Of a stretch of 43,760 nucleotides of DNA, positions 3,549 to 18,319 are shown piece by piece. The first letter of the stretch is position 1. Every line of letters begins with the position of its first letter. The notes beneath the pieces were generated by a model. It searched no databases, was not told the DNA's origin, and saw only the letters and a program-made list of their open reading frames with translations. Origin of the DNA: a virus. Both the position numbers and the translations under genes were made by a program. The stretch is taken from the IMG/VR virus record IMGVR_UViG_3300009506_000066, positions 1-43,760 of that record; one strand, given 5' to 3'.

Positions 3549-5447
3549 TTAGAGAGAACAGAGTGAGTACGTACACACAGAACAGTCTATACAACCATTC
3601 TCGTGTACGAGGTCCCCACCACATTGGGGACACTTATCCTCCTCTTTATCATGTGCATACAAAACTTGCTCTGACCTGGACTCATCTACATAAACGGTCA
3701 TACCCTTCAGGCCCTTCTCCCATCCGGTACGATAAGCAATAGCTACATCACCAGGGGTTGCGTCCTTTGACAGGTTCAGCGTCTTAGAGATTGATTGGTC
3801 AATGTACTCTTGGGCCAGGGCCTGTAATGCAATGTGATCGTCTGGAGATACTTCATAAGCTGTTTCATAGATGTTCTCAGACTTGCCGTTTGCTAGTGCG
3901 AGTTTTACGCCTGGGTGCACATATTCAATAAACTCGTCGTTACCACTCATTCTTACCCGGCGTGTGAACCTGGGCGCAAATAGAGGCTCTATTCCTGACG
4001 TAACACCGAACAGGTTGCTGATAGTCCCAGTCGGCGCCACAGACAACAGGGTAACATTACGGGTGCCGTGGTCTATGATTGATCTGCGAAGGTTAGGGGG
4101 AAGGGTGCCAAAGAACCCTTGCCTTGATATGGATTCCCGGCTATCTTCTGTTATATCCCAGGCCTTAGCCGGGCCCTTTTCATGGGCCATTGTTACAGAC
4201 TGAGTATAAGCAGCATCCCGCATCGACTTGAAGACAGAGTTTACAAAGGACACTGTCGTAGGGTTGGAAGAGTACGAATATCCCAGCATAGCTAGGGTAT
4301 CTGCCAGTCCCATAACCCCAAGACCAACTCTCCGCAACATAATCAGGGACCTGCGCTGCCTGTCCGTGATCCATCCTTTGTTGTCCAGCTCCAGGTCGAT
4401 CACCTCATCCAGGAACCTGACAGACGCCATCACGTCAGATGTAAAAGAGGTCATATCAAACCGGGCGTAGCTGGTAAATGGGTCATACACATAAGCAGCT
4501 AGGTTCATGCTGCCCAGGTTGCAAACCCCGTCCTGGTCCAGCACCTGCTCGCTGCATGCATTTACCCCAACGATGCGCCACTCATCACCGAATAGGTCAG
4601 AGTTTGAGAACCTTTTAGAAGTATCCCAAAATAGCACTCCGGGCTCTGCAGCAGCATGAGCGGAATGTGCCAGGGTATCAAAAAGATCCTGAGCAGAGAT
4701 AATCGTCTCTGACCTGAAATCCTGTCCACCACTATTACCTTTAAATGACAAAGTCCATAACTGGTCCGAGATTGCTGCATCCATGAAGGCGTCACTAATC
4801 CGTACAGAGATGTTTGCGCTGGACATCCCTGGAAGTCTTTTAATGTTAAGAAAATCCATCGGTATGTAGCCGTTAAAACATGCATCACATCCAGCCCCTC
4901 CACATACTGGACATAGCATGTCTTTATGGCCCAAGCGGTATAAATCGGGGTGGTCATCAGCGATAGAAAACAACAGGGCAGCACGTCGTCCTTCCTGCCC
5001 TATCGTAGCACCAACATTATTCAGCATCTGCATGAAACTGATTGCCCCGGTGGATGTCTTTGCAGCATTATTTACTGGTGAATCAAAAGGACGCAGGTTA
5101 GAGATATCGATCCCTATTCCCTGCCCCCTTGAAGACGCCCTCATAATTGTATAAGCAGTATCTGAGATATCCTCGAGGCTATCCCCGGGGACCTCATGTG
5201 TTGTGCAGTTCATCAGACTTAGTTTTGCTGTCGGTCTACCAGCATATGCAAGTATCCTTCCGCCTGGAGAAAAGCGTTTGTTTATCATTAAGTCGTAGTA
5301 GCGTCGTGCGTACCTGGGGTCGCCCCCAGCTTCGGCAACGGTCTGGGCTAGGTACCAAAAGTGATCCTCTACCCCTTTGCGTTCCCCTTTGTACTTGGTC
5401 TCAAAAATCTCCCTAGCGAAAGGGTCGGTAAACCAAGAAGTGTCCAT
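3549..5447 (-). CDS. nrdJ: Class II (adenosylcobalamin-dependent) ribonucleotide reductase
   Basis: Reduces ribonucleotides to deoxyribonucleotides for phage DNA synthesis. The 632-residue single chain carries the expected sites: first redox Cys81 in LMNCTTHEV, the active-site triad in NACSE (Asn296, Cys298, Glu300), the second redox Cys309 in GVCNLGSMNL, the phosphate-binding APTGTISNLFG loop and a C-terminal Cys cluster (CPQCGG...GCIDCSVC) typical of the swinging redox tail. No beta subunit is nearby, as expected for class II. Unusually, a four-Cys knuckle CPVCGGAGCDAC (179-190) is inserted after the ADDHPDL loop. ATG 5447 has TGGAGGTC upstream. The host must supply cobalamin. Confidence 0.93.
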   Translation of the reverse strand: MDTSWFTDPFAREIFETKYKGERKGVEDHFWYLAQTVAEAGGDPRYARRYYDLMINKRFSPGGRILAYAGRPTAKLSLMNCTTHEVPGDSLEDISDTAYTIMRASSRGQGIGIDISNLRPFDSPVNNAAKTSTGAISFMQMLNNVGATIGQEGRRAALLFSIADDHPDLYRLGHKDMLCPVCGGAGCDACFNGYIPMDFLNIKRLPGMSSANISVRISDAFMDAAISDQLWTLSFKGNSGGQDFRSETIISAQDLFDTLAHSAHAAAEPGVLFWDTSKRFSNSDLFGDEWRIVGVNACSEQVLDQDGVCNLGSMNLAAYVYDPFTSYARFDMTSFTSDVMASVRFLDEVIDLELDNKGWITDRQRRSLIMLRRVGLGVMGLADTLAMLGYSYSSNPTTVSFVNSVFKSMRDAAYTQSVTMAHEKGPAKAWDITEDSRESISRQGFFGTLPPNLRRSIIDHGTRNVTLLSVAPTGTISNLFGVTSGIEPLFAPRFTRRVRMSGNDEFIEYVHPGVKLALANGKSENIYETAYEVSPDDHIALQALAQEYIDQSISKTLNLSKDATPGDVAIAYRTGWEKGLKGMTVYVDESRSEQVLYAHDKEEDKCPQCGGDLVHENGCIDCSVCTYSLCSL

Positions 5448-6680: not shown

Positions 6681-6888
6681 AAACGGCCCTCCACATCATC
6701 CCTGGTTGTCCGTCGTGTTCCATGGCAACAATCATCATGCCCGGGTGCTGCGTTTTAGAAGACGGCAGCACTCTCTCAGACCTGATTATATAACCCTCTG
6801 ACAGACTTTTGTTTACCTTCTCAGCCAGCAGGTTCATGCGGAGTACGTTCCCAACATGAAATCTATATTTAGGCAGCCCAGTATTCAT
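6628..6888 (-). CDS. Hypothetical protein, 86 aa
   Basis: The frame is open further upstream, but ATG 6888 preceded by AGGGGGG is the only start with a good ribosome site, and it overlaps the methyltransferase end by 20 bases. The product has a beta-rich core (LPKYRFHVGNVLRMN, then EGYIIRSERVLPSS, then MMIVAMEHDGQPGMMWRAVY) and a basic/acidic tail that overlaps the HNH start by 53 bases. It resembles small single-domain beta proteins of early phage regions. No function assigned. Confidence 0.62.
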   Translation of the reverse strand: MNTGLPKYRFHVGNVLRMNLLAEKVNKSLSEGYIIRSERVLPSSKTQHPGMMIVAMEHDGQPGMMWRAVYGNRLPKTEEGREEEGR

Positions 6889-7507
6889 CGTCCCCCCTGT
6901 TGTGTAGCAGTAATGATGTGACCCATAACCGGGGTGCACCAACTGGTTTACCGTGGTCATCCTTCTCCCAGTAGTATATGCCGTAGTCCGTCCCGTTTGT
7001 TCCACCACCATAGAAGGATGGTCTTCGAGCACACACCGAAACTTCACTGGGCCAGATCTCATTCCAGAGACCTTCATATCTTTTAACACTGGCCTGGAAA
7101 GCTAACCTTAAAAGAAAGATCATCTGTCCTCCAGGGACCAGCAGATCCCAAGATAGCCTGATCATTTCCTCAGCAAACTTATAAGGCGGATTGCTGACGA
7201 TCAGGTCATATATCTGGTCTTGCAGGGGCGCCCATTTCATGAAATCTGTGTTGTTAAACCAGATATCGAAGTTGGGCGGTTGTGGTTGGTTTAGTAACTC
7301 TACTCCAGTAAGGTTAGCTGTAGGGACGTACTCTATGAGCACCTCCCCCCAGCGACCGTCCCCGGCACCAACATCCAGGGCATTACTAACTGGCTCTACT
7401 AGAAACTCATTGTAGGCTGCCCGAATGAGATTTTTCTCAGTGACGTAAACATCATTGGGGTCTCGTTCTGGCAGGTCATCCGTATCTTTTACGTAGATTG
7501 TGGTCAT
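6869..7507 (-). CDS. Class I SAM-dependent methyltransferase (NPPY type)
   Basis: About 212 residues. Motif I is ALDVGAGDGRWGEV (43-56), the acidic end of strand 2 is GVELL (68-72), and motif IV is SNPPYKFAEE (105-114), the signature of N6-adenine or N5-glutamine methyltransferases. The N-terminal VYVTEKNLIRA resembles the substrate-docking segment of small adenine methyltransferases. Start 7507 is preferred because it overlaps the upstream stop (ATGA) and has AAGGGAAAA before it. It probably methylates adenine in DNA or RNA; a partner restriction enzyme is not seen. The C-terminal YGIYYWEKDDHG segment is typical of phage members. Confidence 0.78.
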   Translation of the reverse strand: MTTIYVKDTDDLPERDPNDVYVTEKNLIRAAYNEFLVEPVSNALDVGAGDGRWGEVLIEYVPTANLTGVELLNQPQPPNFDIWFNNTDFMKWAPLQDQIYDLIVSNPPYKFAEEMIRLSWDLLVPGGQMIFLLRLAFQASVKRYEGLWNEIWPSEVSVCARRPSFYGGGTNGTDYGIYYWEKDDHGKPVGAPRLWVTSLLLHNRGDDEYWAA

Positions 7508-7701
7508 TTTTCCCTTTTTATTCCTGCAGTAAACAGTCCCAGGTAGTGGTATCCCCATCCAATGCCGATGAAGCTGTATTCCCCATCAGGCCATTTTTTG
7601 AAGATGTACTTTAGAACCTCTTTAGGAAATTTTACTATAGCAAACTTCCCAAAGATAGTCTTATATAAGAACCCCTCCCTGGGCATCGTCTCTTGTTCCA
7701 T
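7504..7701 (-). CDS. Hypothetical protein, about 65 aa
   Basis: Three starts are possible near 7713-7701. ATG 7701 is chosen because GGAGG ends five bases before it. The gene overlaps the end of the upstream methyltransferase and is coupled by ATGA to the downstream one. The product is small, basic and aromatic-rich (FLYKTIFGKFAIVKFPKEV, then KKWPDGEYSFIGIGWGYHYL), with beta-like periodicity. No family recognised; a partner for one of the flanking methyltransferases is possible from the context only. Confidence 0.6.
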   Translation of the reverse strand: MEQETMPREGFLYKTIFGKFAIVKFPKEVLKYIFKKWPDGEYSFIGIGWGYHYLGLFTAGIKREK

Positions 7702-8332
7702 CATTGCCTCCAAGATTATCGAGTATGGAGATAAGCTGGACCCTTCCGAAGTATGTTCTTGGTTGCCAGTATGCGAGATCAGTCAGGTCAAAAGTTTTAC
7801 CTTCTCCTTCCTCTACAATCACACCCCCACCATCCACGCCAATTAGAAGTGTCTTATTTTCCTTAAGATATTCGTAAGGCATTTCTGGAACAATAGCACC
7901 TTCAACTAAGTGCCAAACATGTGCTTTTTTAAACTTTCCGTCTTTGTTTACCGGGGAGAACCAGTGCTGAAAGATGATCCTTTTCCTGGCAACCCGGTGC
8001 AACTCATTTAACATATCATGGTTCCACTGAAACTTCCCGTTGTACGGGGGGTCTATCAGCACAGTATCAAAAGAGTTGTCTGCTACGGGCAGCCTTGCAG
8101 CGTCCGCTTTGATGTCAGCGTCTTCGAACAGGTCGATCCTAACATCTCCCAGCATGCTCTTACCAGGGCAAACGTGTAAGGTCGTACCAACCAACCTCTC
8201 CCGCAAGTACTCCTCAACTGCATCGGGCCATAGCACTTTATCTACGGTGTAGAGATGTGCTGTACCTGCCAGAGGAACAGCCCCTCGAGTAGCATGTATC
8301 CCTTTTTGCGCCTTGTAGGTTACGGTGCTCAT
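7661..8332 (-). CDS. SAM-dependent methyltransferase with DPPYNGK motif
   Basis: 223 residues. The second half of a Rossmann methyltransferase is clear: DADIKADAARLPVADNSFD (71-89), then VLIDPPYNGK (91-100), then a helix and a KRIIFQHWFSP strand. The usual glycine-rich motif I is replaced by HVCPGKSMLGD (53-63), which still fits a SAM loop. DPPY suggests an amino-group target (adenine or cytosine N4); the pattern with PVADNSFD also occurs in small-molecule and tRNA methyltransferases. The start overlaps the RNase H stop (ATGA). The target cannot be fixed from sequence alone. Confidence 0.75.
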   Translation of the reverse strand: MSTVTYKAQKGIHATRGAVPLAGTAHLYTVDKVLWPDAVEEYLRERLVGTTLHVCPGKSMLGDVRIDLFEDADIKADAARLPVADNSFDTVLIDPPYNGKFQWNHDMLNELHRVARKRIIFQHWFSPVNKDGKFKKAHVWHLVEGAIVPEMPYEYLKENKTLLIGVDGGGVIVEEGEGKTFDLTDLAYWQPRTYFGRVQLISILDNLGGNDGTRDDAQGGVLI

Positions 8333-9282: not shown

Positions 9283-9670
9283 CTACCGCATCAGTATAAA
9301 CTGGTTCGCTGGAGCTTTCTCCAGAGCCAGCATCGATTGCACCCTTTCCAAAGTCTATACTTACAACTTTGAAGTTGTGGAAATAACGGTTGGTCCCGGT
9401 CTCTTCATCTTGGACAGCTCGCCTTTGGTATTCCGCCTCTACGAATACCTGGGTACCTTTTACGGCCCGGGCAATAATCCTTTCGGCTTTCTTCCCAAAT
9501 GCAACGCAGTCAAACCAAGTGGTCTCGTCCTTCCACTGACCGTCATCCCCCATCCAGGACTTGCGGGATGCTACCCCAAAGGTAACCATCGCAGATCCGC
9601 TAGGGAGGTATTTCATCTCTGGGTCCTGACCAAGTAATCCAGAGAACAGGCAAAGATTTTTGACACTCAT
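9269..9670 (-). CDS. ssb: Single-stranded DNA-binding protein
   Basis: 133 residues with the OB-fold pattern of bacterial and phage SSB: an N-terminal strand (NLCLFSGLLGQDPEMKYLPS), GSAMVTFGVASRK, a WKDETTWFDCVAFGKKAE strand, then GTQVFVEAEYQ and a short Ser/Gly linker. The tail VYTDAVDVPF keeps the acidic tip ending in Pro-Phe that recruits replication partners. It protects ssDNA in replication and recombination. First gene of the leftward operon, with AAGGAGG before ATG 9670 and a promoter 33-61 bases upstream. Confidence 0.93.
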   Translation of the reverse strand: MSVKNLCLFSGLLGQDPEMKYLPSGSAMVTFGVASRKSWMGDDGQWKDETTWFDCVAFGKKAERIIARAVKGTQVFVEAEYQRRAVQDEETGTNRYFHNFKVVSIDFGKGAIDAGSGESSSEPVYTDAVDVPF

Positions 9671-11174: not shown

Positions 11175-11484
11175 CAGCGACGATCAGGCAAAGGACTTCC
11201 TACATACGTATGGAATGAGGTTTGAAAACTCGGTAAACGACAACCAGACAGACTACATGGTTCTGCTGTCATTGTACAGACAGAAATTAGGTGGTGTGCT
11301 CTGGTTTGATGGTGACCTGGAACCAGACCGGGACGTTTTCATTACCCTGAACCCTGCTGTAGAGTCTGAAGATGTAAAGATTCTAACAAAGGAATATCAG
11401 GACTACACCCTCTCGATGCTAAAGACTTTCTGTAGAGCTCTTGTGCGTCCTGACTGGGCACCCGATATTTCAGATGGTCAATAA
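11140..11484 (+). CDS. Hypothetical protein between terminase genes
   Basis: 114 residues from ATG 11140 with AGAGGAG upstream; ATG 11146 is an alternative. It overlaps TerS by 35 bases and TerL by 11, so the three are co-translated. It has a helical N-terminus (SDDQAKDFLHTYGMRF), a hydrophobic core (YMVLLSLYRQKLGGVLWF) and a C-terminal helix (YTLSMLKTFCRALV). A packaging accessory role is suggested only by position. Confidence 0.62.
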   Translation: MVMWLKSPLQFNSDDQAKDFLHTYGMRFENSVNDNQTDYMVLLSLYRQKLGGVLWFDGDLEPDRDVFITLNPAVESEDVKILTKEYQDYTLSMLKTFCRALVRPDWAPDISDGQ

Positions 11485-13342
11485 AACAGACCTGGAGAGT
11501 TTAGCTCTCCGTGACCCCTTATCATTCGGTATCCTGCACATAGACCTCCTGGACGACAAACACTGGAAGGTCTGGAAATGGCTACCGGAGCTATATTCTG
11601 TTGGCAACCCATGGGCTATAGAAAAGTACCCTGTCGGACTTGCCAGGAAATTTGCTATCCAGAAGAGTACCCAGGCTGGGATTACCACATTGATGATGGT
11701 AAAGTCCCTGCACTTCTTAGCAAACTGGAACGTCAGAGTATTTTACACCCTACCCAGGTTGACCGATGTCGGTGACTTTTCTGGCACCCGGCTTGACCCA
11801 ACTATCCAGGCGTCTCCCTTTCTCAGGGAGTTGCTGGGAGAACCAAACTCCAACCATGCTAAAAGAATAGGCAACAGTTACATGTACATATCTGAGTTGA
11901 CTACGGAACCCCGTATGCTGCCTTCCGATATGGCTATCATTGACGAGGTAGATCTCTCGGACATAGATCACATGTCCACTGTGCTGAACAGATTGGATGC
12001 GTCCCGTTGGAAGTTGAGCAACACACTCTCTACCCCAACCCTGGCAAACTACGGAATAAATGCTATCTTCTTGAACTCGGATATGCGTGAGTGGATGGTG
12101 AAGTGCCCGAGTTGTGGAACCCATCAGGTAATGGACTTCGATGTCAACGTCAGGATTGAAGGCCCCCCTGATACACCAACTCGAGTATACTACGGGTGCG
12201 AGAAATGCGACCGTGAGTTTACTGTCGATGAGATCAACGAATATGGTGAGTGGGTCCCAGGTAAACCTCAACTGAGTGACGAGCACCGGGGATACCACAT
12301 AAGCCAAATGATGACGCACCCCGCAATTGAGTTATACAAAGCTTTCCGTGACCCGCAAACTAAGCTGGTGGAGTTTTACAGGAAAAGGCTCGGGATGCCT
12401 TACCAGTTGGGGGGTGGCAGCATCGAGAGAGAGGACTTCCTGGTAACCTGTTTCGATGACCCGTATCTCCCAGAGATGAGCCCGGATGACCGTTCCAAGT
12501 ACTACATGGGACTTGACCAGGGCAACGAGCTCCAGGTTGTTATAGGCAAAATAGAGCCAGATAGTCGCCTTCGAAAGATTGTCCACATAGAGTTTATTCC
12601 TATGGAGGACGGTTTCGAGCGGGCTGCTAAACTTATGAAACTGTTCCGGATCAAGAGGGCAGTCTGGGACGGAAACCCGAACAGGCACCCGGTACTTACT
12701 ATCCAGAAAAACTTCCCGGGTAAGCTCCTGGCTGCAGATTATATCGAGCAGCAAAAGACAAGATGGAAGACCAACAAACAGGGACAGAAGTATACCACCA
12801 ATGTTACCATCCACAGAACCACAATGTTTGATGAGTTGATGGAGAGTATCAAAAAAGGTGAGTGGCAACTATACGGAGAACCCCCCAGCCTTAACCCGGA
12901 GGTGGAGTTGCTGATTGACCATGTAACGGCTCTCAAGAGAGATGTTGAAGAGCGCACTACAAGATCTGGTACAATAGAGGTTGGTGTTTATCGTAAACTG
13001 AGGATGGACCACTTGGCCCACGCCATGGGATATCTGGGCATAGCCATGGATATCGATAAAGGAAAACGAGGAAAAGTTGCCGTCGTTGGCGAAATGTCTG
13101 CAGAAGAGATTGTAGTAGAAGAAGATTCCGAAAGACCCCCCAAAGAGGATATCGTTTACATTGTTGGTAAACTTGCGGAGGTCCCGAAGGAACAACTATC
13201 AGAGTACTTGTTGAGGAGAGATAGCCCTAAGTATGAGATCCCGTTCCCATTATCTTATAAGATCACCAAGGTTTCAGAGTATGACCAGAATGTTGTTGAC
13301 TGGGTCATCACTGAGATCTTGCTTGGTGATGGGGTTATTTGA
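11474..13342 (+). CDS. terL: Terminase large subunit (GpA-like ATPase/nuclease)
   Basis: Motor that cuts and pumps DNA into the prohead. The ATPase half has a divergent Walker A, QKSTQAGITTLMM (63-75), and a Walker B, MAIIDEVDLSD (153-163). A zinc site CPSC...CEKC interrupts the chain, as in lambda GpA-type terminases. The nuclease half starts with YMGLDQGNE and has later acidic residues in DHVTALKRDV and MDHLAHAMGY. The ATG at 11474 is preferred over TTG 11441 because the latter runs 44 bases into the upstream gene; neither has a strong ribosome site. About 622 residues. The -35 of the next promoter overlaps its TGA. Confidence 0.9.
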   Translation: MVNKTDLESLALRDPLSFGILHIDLLDDKHWKVWKWLPELYSVGNPWAIEKYPVGLARKFAIQKSTQAGITTLMMVKSLHFLANWNVRVFYTLPRLTDVGDFSGTRLDPTIQASPFLRELLGEPNSNHAKRIGNSYMYISELTTEPRMLPSDMAIIDEVDLSDIDHMSTVLNRLDASRWKLSNTLSTPTLANYGINAIFLNSDMREWMVKCPSCGTHQVMDFDVNVRIEGPPDTPTRVYYGCEKCDREFTVDEINEYGEWVPGKPQLSDEHRGYHISQMMTHPAIELYKAFRDPQTKLVEFYRKRLGMPYQLGGGSIEREDFLVTCFDDPYLPEMSPDDRSKYYMGLDQGNELQVVIGKIEPDSRLRKIVHIEFIPMEDGFERAAKLMKLFRIKRAVWDGNPNRHPVLTIQKNFPGKLLAADYIEQQKTRWKTNKQGQKYTTNVTIHRTTMFDELMESIKKGEWQLYGEPPSLNPEVELLIDHVTALKRDVEERTTRSGTIEVGVYRKLRMDHLAHAMGYLGIAMDIDKGKRGKVAVVGEMSAEEIVVEEDSERPPKEDIVYIVGKLAEVPKEQLSEYLLRRDSPKYEIPFPLSYKITKVSEYDQNVVDWVITEILLGDGVI

Positions 13343-13367
13343 CACAGAATAAAATCTGTGATATAAT
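13339..13367 (+). promoter_or_regulatory. Consensus sigma70/A promoter for the noncoding region
   Basis: TTGACA (13339-13344), 17-base spacer, TATAAT (13362-13367): a perfect match to both hexamers with optimal spacing, making it one of the two best promoters in the window. It starts over the stop codon of TerL and points into about 600 bases without a protein gene, so high expression of an RNA is likely. Confidence 0.88.
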
Positions 13368-13373
13368 TGAGGT

Positions 13374-13885
13374 TGGTTTACATCAGGATAGTCCGGTCAG
13401 AGATTATTCTATAAAAAGATTCACCTGCCATCGGGGACCCCTTGTAGGGTCGCTGGGCCAGATGCTGACGGTCAGGAGACATTAGACTTCTCCATTTGCT
13501 GTGCTATCCCAGAACCTACGAAATGTAGCACAGAAACTTGAGTAGGTGTCACCCAAGACACCCCCCGTACTGTAACTCGGGGATTACGCAGAGCACTAGG
13601 TAACTCCTGAAGAAGGAGATAACAGATTAGTCACTCGGTAAAAGCAGACCTGGGCGAGTTGAAGACTGCGTAATGAGGATGCTCGGAGTAAAAGGGTACT
13701 TGTCGGATGGTATTCCCATCCTTAATCGCCCTCTCAGTCAGCCCTGACTGAGCAACGACAGCTCATCCATTCCCCCCTACTTAAGCTATCACACTTATTG
13801 GATACCATTTTTGTGTGGTGGCGGGTAGGGGGGAGTCTATGTTCTATCCTAGGGGTGACCCCAGGCCTTAAAAGCCCTGGTTACC
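13374..13885 (+). ncRNA. Candidate large structured RNA, about 510 nt
   Basis: No credible reading frame exists here, yet many segments pair exactly: 13499-13506 with 13526-13533 (8 bp), 13545-13550 with 13557-13562, 13563-13567 with 13578-13582, 13583-13591 with 13666-13674 (9 bp closing a multi-branch domain that holds 13604-13608/13614-13618 and 13633-13637/13655-13659), 13705-13710 with 13716-13721, 13733-13740 with 13745-13752, 13771-13780 with 13825-13834 (10 bp, holding 13790-13794/13813-13817), and a bulged stem 13854-13866/13874-13885. A loop at 13514-13519 can also pair with 13542-13547. Size and phage setting recall ROOL and GOLLD, but I cannot match either. No T-run marks the 3' end, so it may also be a long leader. 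Confidence 0.7.
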
Positions 13886-13974
13886 AGAGTTAACCCGAAG
13901 GGCATTAAAATATAAGCTCAGGTATATATATAGTAAGATAGAGCCTCCGGAGCTTAAGAGCTATAGGAGATACG
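13886..13974 (+). promoter_or_regulatory. Leader with competing hairpins before the gene at 13975
   Basis: AAGCTC (13914-13919) can pair with GAGCTT (13950-13955), or its GCTC with GAGC (13941-13944). CTCC (13945-13948) can pair with the GGAG of the ribosome site (13966-13969), and AGCT-TAAG-AGCT (13951-13962) can fold alone. These exclude one another, so the ribosome site could be open or closed. No terminator T-run is present. Confidence 0.35.
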
Positions 13975-14199
13975 ATGAAAGACTTAGTCTACAAGGTACG
14001 TGACAAAAACACAAACCTGTTTTTAACAGGCAGGGGTTATTACCCACAATGGACCGAGAGAGGCAGGGTATACACCACAGTTTGGGCATGCAGGGCAGCA
14101 ATGAAGTTGCGTGATTTGTATGATCGTGGTAAAATTAAACCCGAAATAGTTGAGTTTGAGCTGGTACCCACAGGAGAAAAGTATAATGTCGATGCTTGA
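13975..14199 (+). CDS. Hypothetical protein, 74 aa
   Basis: First gene after the noncoding region, with ATAGGAGATACG before the ATG. The product is basic and aromatic (LVYKVRDKNTNLFLTGRGYY, then WTERGRVYTTVWACRAAMKL) and ends in an acidic segment. This pattern of a short beta-hairpin followed by a helix is seen in many small phage proteins without known function. It overlaps the next gene by 14 bases. Confidence 0.72.
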   Translation: MKDLVYKVRDKNTNLFLTGRGYYPQWTERGRVYTTVWACRAAMKLRDLYDRGKIKPEIVEFELVPTGEKYNVDA

Positions 14200-15872: not shown

Positions 15873-15901
15873 TTGACACCATTTCCAACCTATAGTATAA
15901 T
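15873..15901 (+). promoter_or_regulatory. Consensus promoter for the 15986-19028 operon
   Basis: TTGACA (15873-15878), 17-base spacer, TATAAT (15896-15901), four bases after the exonuclease stop. It should drive the genes up to the terminator at 19028-19060. The transcript begins with the structured leader at 15917-15975. Confidence 0.87.
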
Positions 15902-15916
15902 AGAGTTACATGTTGA

Positions 15917-15975
15917 ACCTCCTTAGCGGATGGGGGCAGGGGTTTGCGAGGCCTCTGCCCCCGGACCACGGAGGT
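15917..15975 (+). promoter_or_regulatory. Structured leader with anti-Shine-Dalgarno sequence and GC hairpin
   Basis: 15917-15925 reads ACCTCCTTA, the 3'-terminal sequence of bacterial 16S rRNA. Its ACCTCC can pair with GGAGGT at 15970-15975, just before the AGGAG and ATG 15986. Between them lies an 11-bp hairpin (15932-15942 with 15952-15962, one G-U pair, 9-base loop). No T-run follows, so it is not a terminator. The arrangement would hide part of the ribosome site and suggests translational control of the membrane protein at 15986. Confidence 0.65.
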
Positions 15976-16249: not shown

Positions 16250-16551
16250 TGGCGCATGTTGGAGAGCAAATTAAAGTACTGATGCAAACAGCAGATGGTA
16301 TTGTTCATGATATATCTGGTTATGTATCTGAGTTTTCTATAACCCAGAATATTGACGGTATGACCTATGTTGATACACGTATTGTAGGATCAGGAGGGTA
16401 TAACAGGTTTCTTAGTGATGAGTGGGAATCTGAAGTATCCGAAAAGAAAAGTAAAAAAGAGTGGGAGTGCGATTGGTGCCACTCTCCGAATGTATGGAGG
16501 GACAGGCATTGTACCCAGTGTGGTGGTATCAGGAGTTTTATATATGGTTAA
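16249..16551 (+). CDS. Hypothetical protein with C-terminal zinc ribbon
   Basis: 100 residues with GGAGATTCTATA before the ATG. The N-terminal half is beta-rich (IKVLMQTADGIVHDISGYV, then SEFSITQNIDGMTYVDTRIV). The C-terminal part has CDWCHSPNVWRDRHCTQCGG, four Cys in RanBP2-like zinc-ribbon spacing with a Trp and Asn. Such ribbons bind RNA or protein. It overlaps the DNA methyltransferase start by 8 bases. Function unknown. Confidence 0.7.
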   Translation: MAHVGEQIKVLMQTADGIVHDISGYVSEFSITQNIDGMTYVDTRIVGSGGYNRFLSDEWESEVSEKKSKKEWECDWCHSPNVWRDRHCTQCGGIRSFIYG

Positions 16552-17377
16552 AACCGAAACATACCAGGGGGATTGTGTGGATGTTCTCCAGATCTTCGGT
16601 GAGAACAAGTTTGACTTGACTGTTACCAGCCCACCCTACGATGCCATTAGAGATTATGGCAAAGATTGGGACCTGGACCTGGGTGCTCTCGGTGATCAAC
16701 TATACCGGGTAACTAAGCCCGGTGGTTGGGTTACAATGGTCATCCAGGATGGCACAAAGGACAGAAAGAAGTCCGTAACAACATTTAAGACTGCTGTAGA
16801 TTGGGTAGATAGGGTAGGATTTAACCTATTTGAAACTGTGATTTATCAGAGACATGGTAAGCCTGGAAACTGGTGGACCAAGAGGTTCCGGGTTGACCAT
16901 GAGTATATTCTGATCTTCTTTAAGGGTGATAAGCCGGGATACTTTAATAAGGATCCCCTCAAGATCCCGGCACTACACGCTGGGAAGGTGTGGAGTGGAA
17001 CGCAGAGAAAGACGAATGGAGACTTAATCCCCATAGAGCCAACTGAGCAGAAGGCTCTCAAGTGTAGGGGCACGATCTGGCCCTACAGCACCTCCAATAG
17101 TGAAGGGGATAAGTTGAAGCTGCAGCACCCCGCTACCTTCCCAGACGCTCTTGCCCGTGACCTGATATTGTGTTTCAGTCCTCCTGGGGGATTGGTGTTA
17201 GACCCGCTCGCTGGTTCTGGGACAGTGGGTGTAGAATGCATACGACAGGGTCGAGATTTTATTGGTATAGAAATCTCCCAGGAGTACTGCGACATAATGG
17301 GTCAACGGTTACATATTGCTGGAAAGAACGCATACAATGGTGGCTGGCCCGGAGGCTGGGTTCAGGAGAGTTTTTAG
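16544..17377 (+). CDS. DNA methyltransferase, N4-cytosine/N6-adenine beta class
   Basis: 277 residues from ATG 16544. The order is catalytic motif IV first (TVTSPPYDAIRDYG, about 27-40) and SAM-binding motif I last (LVLDPLAGSGTVGVEC, then FIGIEIS), which defines the beta group. TSPPY favours N4-cytosine or N6-adenine as target. Phages use such orphan methylases to shield DNA from host restriction. No cognate restriction gene is adjacent. The upstream frame is open to 16415 but overlaps the preceding gene and lacks a ribosome site. The stop overlaps the next GTG start by one base (TAGTG). Confidence 0.88.
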   Translation: MVKTETYQGDCVDVLQIFGENKFDLTVTSPPYDAIRDYGKDWDLDLGALGDQLYRVTKPGGWVTMVIQDGTKDRKKSVTTFKTAVDWVDRVGFNLFETVIYQRHGKPGNWWTKRFRVDHEYILIFFKGDKPGYFNKDPLKIPALHAGKVWSGTQRKTNGDLIPIEPTEQKALKCRGTIWPYSTSNSEGDKLKLQHPATFPDALARDLILCFSPPGGLVLDPLAGSGTVGVECIRQGRDFIGIEISQEYCDIMGQRLHIAGKNAYNGGWPGGWVQESF

Positions 17378-17832
17378 TGGAAGGCCAGTACCACCCAACG
17401 CAGCACTTATGTCTAGCATGTGCTGGTAAGACGATTACCTGGACATTTGCAATATGCTCGGACTGTGAGAAAGTGTATGGTACAAACAAAGACTGGCCCG
17501 AGTGGTTGAGATTTTCTTGGAGAGATGAGCTTAGACGTAGGAGACTTATTAAATCAATAAATGACAACAACATAGTGATCACATATGGGTACCTGGAAGA
17601 TGTCCTGGGGTTTGTCTCTGATGGGAAACCTTTTATGTTTTCTAATAGAAACCACGAGAGGATGATTAATAACGAGATACTACTTGAGTGGTTAGATTCC
17701 TTGTCTTCTGTACAGAGAGTAGAGATTGTTATGTATATGTTTGGGTACAAACAAGAGCAGATATCAAAAATAACTGGTCAAACGAGGGCCACTGTTGCGT
17801 TACATCTTTCTAAGTTGAAGGAGTTGTTTTGA
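17377..17832 (+). CDS. Fused zinc-ribbon / sigma-region-4-like HTH regulator
   Basis: GTG 17377 follows CAGGAG by nine bases. The 151-residue product has an N-terminal zinc ribbon (LCLACAGKTITWTFAICSDC) with a WPEWLRFSWRDELRRRR helix, a linker, and a C-terminal HTH (SSVQRVEIVMYMFGYKQEQ, then KITGQTRATVALHLSKLKEL). The ribbon is paralogous to the protein at 10100 and the HTH resembles the protein at 9892, but here they are one chain and in reversed order. It probably binds DNA or RNA polymerase as a transcription regulator; serving the recurrent late motif is an attractive but untested idea. Confidence 0.75.
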   Translation: MEGQYHPTQHLCLACAGKTITWTFAICSDCEKVYGTNKDWPEWLRFSWRDELRRRRLIKSINDNNIVITYGYLEDVLGFVSDGKPFMFSNRNHERMINNEILLEWLDSLSSVQRVEIVMYMFGYKQEQISKITGQTRATVALHLSKLKELF

Positions 17833-18036
17833 ATGAAACCTGATACTATTCATAAAACTTTGTCTGCCGTATTGGAGAGTATAACCCAACTATACATGGA
17901 TGAAAAGATAAATGAGCAGGAATATGATCGCCTTATGGTTGACCATGAGGAGGTATTATCCCTTCTAAGGATAGCTTATAGAAGGGTTTTAAGACTCCAG
18001 GCGGAAGTGATATACTTGGAGGACAAAAATGAGTAA
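17833..18036 (+). CDS. Small coiled-coil-like protein
   Basis: 67 residues, starting one base after the regulator's stop, with GGAG upstream inside that gene. Two amphipathic helices are evident (HKTLSAVLESITQLYMDEK, then YDRLMVDHEEVLSLLRIAYR), ending in a leucine-patterned helix (VLRLQAEVIYLEDKNE). It may dimerise or bind the adjacent regulator; no family recognised. It overlaps the next gene by 8 bases. Confidence 0.68.
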   Translation: MKPDTIHKTLSAVLESITQLYMDEKINEQEYDRLMVDHEEVLSLLRIAYRRVLRLQAEVIYLEDKNE

Positions 18037-18319
18037 AGTAGTCTGGAAGTACCAGTTTGGGATGCGATCTGATAGGTCTGTATTTTCTATGCCAAGAGGG
18101 GCGATTATTCGAAGGGCTGCTATGCAGGGTGGAAAGATTACACTATGGGCAGAAGTAGCACCAGACCCGGTGGACGGTCCACATACGGAGTATGAGCAAA
18201 GATATTTTATAATTATCCCTACAGGAATACACTGGTACTCAGATCTTACCTATATAGATACCGTATTTGACGGAGAGTATGTTTGGCACATTTATGAATC
18301 GAAAGGAGAACCACAATGA
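18029..18319 (+). CDS. DUF7352-like small beta protein
   Basis: 96 residues with TTGGAGGACAAAA before ATG. The pattern VWKYQF...SVFSMPRGAIIRRAAMQGG, then ITLWAEVAP and HWYSDLTYIDTVF, is that of a widespread small phage/bacterial domain of unknown function: W-K-Y near the start, M-P-x-G-A, and L-W-A-x-V. I name the family from memory of its pattern. It is coupled by ATGA to the next gene. Confidence 0.72.
   Translation: MSKVVWKYQFGMRSDRSVFSMPRGAIIRRAAMQGGKITLWAEVAPDPVDGPHTEYEQRYFIIIPTGIHWYSDLTYIDTVFDGEYVWHIYESKGEPQ

Follow-up and report, generated by a model that had tools for sequence, protein, structure and literature searches.

A large structured RNA downstream of a phage terminase gene, with a core that reads as a divergent EGFOA motif

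To our knowledge, very few large structured RNAs are known from phages, and the roles of GOLLD and ROOL, like that of the small RNA class EGFOA, are unexplained. GOLLD and ROOL, two large RNAs of phages whose function is unknown, form homo-oligomeric RNA cages and are often found near tRNA islands (PMC12286853). In the present study, we considered a virus record of 43,760 nucleotides (IMG/VR record IMGVR_UViG_3300009506_000066, hereafter the window), where an inspection of the letters alone (the sequence-only reading) had placed a candidate large structured RNA. The RNA of the window resembles GOLLD in being large, structured, and phage-borne, ROOL in its similar length, its pseudoknots, and its phage origin, and the packaging RNA (pRNA) of phi29 in being structured, phage-borne, and adjacent to a terminase gene. 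However, different from GOLLD, it is smaller, is not matched by the covariance model, and has no tRNA genes nearby; different from ROOL, it again gives no covariance-model match and lies outside a tRNA island; and different from pRNA, it is much larger, has no Rfam match, and has relatives that are not tied to packaging genes. In particular, neither covariance model matched the window up to an E value of 10, even with permissive filters. The RNA of the window is not a member of either family, but by analogy it may work like them.

The locus was compared with that of a related phage contig, L002 (IMG/VR 3300009509_000080), whose terminase large subunit (TerL) is 87 to 88% identical to that of the window and whose RNA region is about 74% identical. 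The main features of the locus in the window are the following:

11441 to 13342, + strand: upstream gene, TerL (PHROG 675, E value 2.9e-86)
13339 to 13367, + strand: promoter of the sigma-70/sigma-A type, TTGACA-17-TATAAT with an extended -10 (TGA TATAAT)
13374 to 13906, + strand: large structured non-coding RNA (structured extent; the transcript could reach 13974 or beyond)
13547 to 13671, + strand: EGFOA-like core (Rfam RF02955), 27.2 bits, E value of 0.008 against all Rfam
13975 to 14199, + strand: downstream gene for a small protein, conserved in L002 (homologue at 7535 to 7786)

The promoter consists of TTGACA (13339 to 13344), a 17-nt spacer, and TATAAT (13362 to 13367) preceded by TG; it overlaps the TGA stop codon of the TerL gene, and the predicted transcription start is at about 13374. 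It is one of just two perfect TTGACA-17-TATAAT sites in the 43.8-kb window, and the corresponding L002 promoter at 6869 retains the 12/12 hexamer match and the 17-nt spacing with a diverged spacer sequence; thus, the promoter described by the sequence-only reading is both exact and conserved. The second perfect site, at 15873 to 15901, lies upstream of the open reading frame (ORF) at 15944, and L002 also carries a perfect promoter, at 9435, fronting a stretch homologous to that at 15944. Elsewhere in the window we noticed genes for the large subunit of a ribonucleotide reductase and for two DNA methyltransferases, at 3549 to 5447 (- strand), 6869 to 7558 (- strand), and 16415 to 17377 (+ strand), together with a stretch at 17826 to 18038 (ORF 17833 to 18036) which is 96% identical to L002 at the nucleotide level, compared to about 69 to 82% in neighbouring stretches, perhaps because of recent exchange or strong constraint.

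No reading frame is present in the roughly 530 bases that follow the promoter. Between 13374 and 13960, the longest run without a stop codon spans 55 codons, compared to a median of 80 in shuffled sequences, and the gaps in the alignment of the RNA region with L002 do not preserve a frame, which agrees with the earlier claim that no credible ORF is present. Furthermore, the minimum free energy (MFE) of the RNA is -209.5, compared to -183.3 +/- 6.6 in 20 shuffles (z score of -3.95). The structured RNA lies inside the extent first given, 13339 to 13974, but the structure stops near 13906, and the last 65 nt or so are A+T rich and poorly conserved. The downstream gene had no match in Pfam or PHROG.

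Most helices of the RNA were taken from folding the window by itself, and they were then read in L002. In the list below, double pairs changed on both sides and one-sided pairs on one side, with pairing kept:

13385-13393/13402-13410, + strand: helix H1; 2 double, 1 one-sided, 0 broken
13427 to 13458, + strand: 5' domain hairpin(s) GACCC-CUUGUA-GGGUC, predicted pairs H2a-c
13475 to 13493, + strand: helix H3, GGAGA/UCUCC; 1 of 5 pairs double
13499 to 13533, + strand: helix H4, 8-bp stem; 6 double, 1 one-sided, 0 broken
13514 to 13547, + strand: pseudoknot between the loop 13514-13519 and 13542-13547; 5 of 6 pairs retained, one of them double
13583-13591/13666-13674, + strand: helix P1/H7, 9-bp stem closing the EGFOA-like core; 3 double, 0 broken
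13604 to 13618, + strand: helix H8, inside P1; 1 of 5 pairs double
13633 to 13659, + strand: P2/H9 hairpin ACUCG-GUAAAAGCAGACCUGGG-CGAGU, the class signature, with the 17-nt loop GUAAANNNAGACCUNGG; covariation over six loci
13675 to 13768, + strand: 3' domain, helices H10 to H13, including 13705-13710/13716-13721 and 13733-13740/13745-13752
13771 to 13834, + strand: long 3' hairpin H14+H15, 10-bp stem plus extension; 19 pairs, with 3 double, 4 one-sided, 0 broken
13461 to 13906, + strand: candidate long-range closing helix H16, 13461-13466/13901-13906; 1 double, 1 one-sided, 0 broken

Over 111 tested pairs, 77 are identical in the window and L002, 23 changed on both sides and 9 on one side with pairing kept, and the two others are one broken and one gapped pair, so that pairing is kept in 32 of the 33 variable pairs. 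Restricting the count to helices of the window's own MFE structure gives 20 double-compensated, 8 one-side-compensated, and 1 broken pair. In a simulation where the same changes were placed randomly, based on a helix list slightly different from that of the 111-pair count, the mean number of double-kept pairs was 3.3, and the observed number was reached in none of 20,000 runs. Moreover, when the 276 possible stems of at least 6 bp were ranked by double changes, the top five were all members of one coherent model, and two of them had been named by the sequence-only reading. The three stems which that reading had singled out, at 13499/13526, 13583/13666, and 13771/13825, all exist, with no broken pair in L002 and with six, three, and zero both-sided and one, zero, and one one-sided compensated pairs, respectively; the loop pairing it had proposed is likewise retained, its both-sided change being A-U to G-C. 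The pair cells comprise 25 G-U and no A-C combinations, which indicates an RNA read from the + strand. Thus, the existence of a large structured phage RNA, as predicted from the letters, is strongly supported by covariation with this homologue.

Some parts of the model deserve separate comment. The block 13427 to 13461 is identical in L002, so the predicted pairs H2a-c offer no covariation test, and the first 28 nt of the 3' domain are also identical. The loop of H4 begins with a conserved UCCCAG, and L002 independently folds the same stem; here, the segment 13499 to 13566 was hand-aligned on the shared UCCCAG, since MAFFT misplaced it. In the 3' domain, H12 has one double-compensated pair and H13 has three double, two one-sided, and one broken, while H11 (13700-13705/13756-13761, one double) was taken from the joint analysis; H16 comes from the joint fold only and is absent from the window's own MFE structure. 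As a single close relative was found, support for the 5' and 3' domains comes from comparing two sequences. That the full length is known in two close sequences only, and that some predicted helices are invariant, would suit an intergenic spacer with chance stems and no functional RNA; nevertheless, covariation far beyond the null expectation, together with that of P2 relative to its controls, already strongly disfavours this reading, which we judge extremely improbable.

At the gathering score, the window RNA matched no Rfam family, and a permissive search returned EGFOA and a chance microRNA match only. The resemblance of the middle of the RNA to EGFOA had escaped the sequence-only reading. 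With 27.2 bits, the window falls short of the EGFOA gathering score of 37.7, and L002, with 37.8 bits, exceeds it by 0.1. Even so, the window presents the P1 helix of EGFOA, enclosing a variable hairpin and P2 (13583-13591/13666-13674), and the P2 hairpin, with GUAAAAGCAGACCUGGG at the place of the conserved loop GUAAAGCUAGACCUGGG; the small hairpin that directly follows CCGUCCUAGU in EGFOA is gapped in the model alignment of both the window and L002. Over six loci, 96.7% of the cells of the P2 stem are paired, with a covariation score of 0.547, compared to 0.233 when shuffled and at most 0.160 in slid controls, and the P2 loop is nearly invariant across those loci. The core match in the window and L002, the covariation of P2, and its near-invariant loop point to a divergent relative of EGFOA, and we read the core as a divergent member of the class, even though its score is below the formal threshold and the small hairpin that follows CCGUNCU is missing. 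It follows that the RNA first proposed as a new or distant large class is indeed large and divergent but not entirely new.

The likeness to EGFOA includes the P1 helix, the upstream CCGUNCU, the P2 hairpin with its 17-nt loop followed by UUNRAG, and the occurrence in phage or virus contigs. However, the window RNA measures about 530 nt, compared to the 108 positions of the Rfam model, has an extra hairpin inside P1, and carries 5' and 3' domains unmatched in canonical members. In fact, models of these two domains, built from two sequences and hence insensitive, found no counterpart in the canonical EGFOA contigs, so the sharing of the full-length fold is not supported there.

A search with the core signature identified further virus contigs carrying EGFOA, namely, L005 (with a near-identical copy, L007), L008, and L010, with scores of 67 to 70 bits, and a 97-kb virus contig, L029, whose EGFOA-type RNA (37.1 bits) is truncated by the contig end. 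In the latter case (L029 / L050, 1 to 89), the RNA occupies the extreme end of the contig with its 5' part missing, and the opposite contig end does not continue it. Several other candidates were rejected: L003 (a coding gene), L006, L009, L016, and most of L017 to L045 were chance matches to the DNA pattern, and L064 (Bacillota) lies inside an Rhs gene. Similarly, a resemblance to RNase P or a group I intron noticed by eye near 13386 found no Rfam match, and the motif is lost in L002. Sequence similarity searches against 50,697 phage and 72,556 plasmid records returned nothing meaningful.

Outside viruses, a search of 391 genomes from a single clostridial class found no EGFOA above the cutoff, and a pattern scan of a genome collection covering 84,980 species gave no matches, while the 15 matches of a looser scan all failed EGFOA. 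EGFOA thus seems to belong mainly to viruses, with one subthreshold candidate outside. This EGFOA-like element (L062, 103 to 228, - strand, with L063; 31.7 bits) lies just downstream of the type I restriction-modification gene hsdM, on a contig of 3.9 kb from a clostridial genome, and its stem CCGUG/CACGG encloses the 17-nt loop GUAAGAGCAGACCUGGA.

The gene neighbourhoods of the EGFOA-type RNAs bear on the role of the RNA. The RNA lies directly behind TerL in the window and L002 and directly in front of TerL in L005/L007, which would suit a packaging RNA of the phi29 type, or a structured packaging site, acting together with the adjacent terminase. However, the copy in L008 precedes the genes for a ribbon-helix-helix protein and the major capsid protein, that in L010 a ParA gene, and that in L029 a small protein of no assigned function and a Dam methylase, so that three of five distinct contexts have no adjacent terminase, and the genetic link to packaging genes seen for phi29-type RNAs does not extend across the relatives. 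Furthermore, the TerL of the window belongs to the PHROG 675 family, with large myophages such as SPO1 as best phage-database matches, rather than to phi29-type ATPases, and the wobble pairs and the promoter point to an RNA and not to a DNA site. We therefore regard a packaging role as very unlikely, and the link to packaging drawn by the sequence-only reading finds no support.

The same neighbourhoods speak to a long structured 5' leader, such as a riboswitch or attenuator, which would control in cis the gene at 13975 and the genes that follow. The RNA and this gene, which is conserved in L002, are on the same strand, as are the RNA and the next gene at the other EGFOA loci, and no intrinsic terminator was found between them in the window, so a leader transcript is conceivable. 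On the other hand, an A+T-rich, poorly conserved stretch parts the RNA from the gene, and the downstream genes differ wholly among the EGFOA loci (TerL, ribbon-helix-helix, ParA, and small protein). In a blastp comparison (E value of 1e-3), which for L029 covered about 9 kb, the contigs had no protein in common other than a spurious translation of the RNA. Since EGFOA-type RNAs adjoin different genes and share no common protein, a cis leader for one gene, which had been the stated alternative, is rather unlikely; the lack of a common protein and the differing downstream genes point instead to an RNA acting by itself, and the varied neighbours argue against a role tied to any one of them, packaging included.

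We favour, with moderate confidence, a large and highly structured non-coding RNA of about 530 nt, transcribed from its own promoter, which would act in trans and whose central domain is a divergent EGFOA within its own 5' and 3' domains. On the evidence of the letters, the locus holds a conserved promoter, a folded RNA on the + strand, a P1/P2 core common to EGFOA, and a pseudoknot. The RNA would be transcribed by the host RNA polymerase during infection and, as thought for GOLLD and ROOL, may serve as a stable structural or ribonucleoprotein scaffold, where the invariant P2 loop could represent a functional docking or binding module. It is possible to hypothesize that CUGGG in this loop (13650 to 13654) probably pairs with the conserved upstream CCCAG (13508 to 13512); both are kept in L002 and, by inspection, the counterparts in the distant candidate L062 are UCCAG and CUGGA, but this contact was seen in few sequences, and some members fit it only with wobble pairs.

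A cage-forming ornate RNA that behaves like GOLLD or ROOL, assembling into homo-oligomers through loop-loop contacts, would suit the similar size, the phage location, the many helices with pseudoknots, and the invariant loops, and those two phage RNAs do form homo-oligomers (PMC12286853). Nevertheless, we hold this analogy to be doubtful, as there is no sequence match to either family and no tRNA genes lie nearby, whereas GOLLD and ROOL are often near tRNA islands (PMC12286853). A broader suggestion, which we make only tentatively and consider unlikely, is that EGFOA forms the central part of a whole class of large ornate RNAs which act in trans in unrelated phages and assemble an RNA-only or RNA-protein particle via the invariant P2 loop; GOLLD and ROOL assemble by other means.

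If true, EGFOA, catalogued as a small motif, would be part of large ornate RNAs. The EGFOA core is carried by phages without detectable common genes. The class had been known solely as a short motif; the locus now adds an example at full length, in which the promoter is clear and the fold is supported by covariation, and the class becomes testable, in that it is now apparent what to transcribe, where the start lies, and which loop to mutate.
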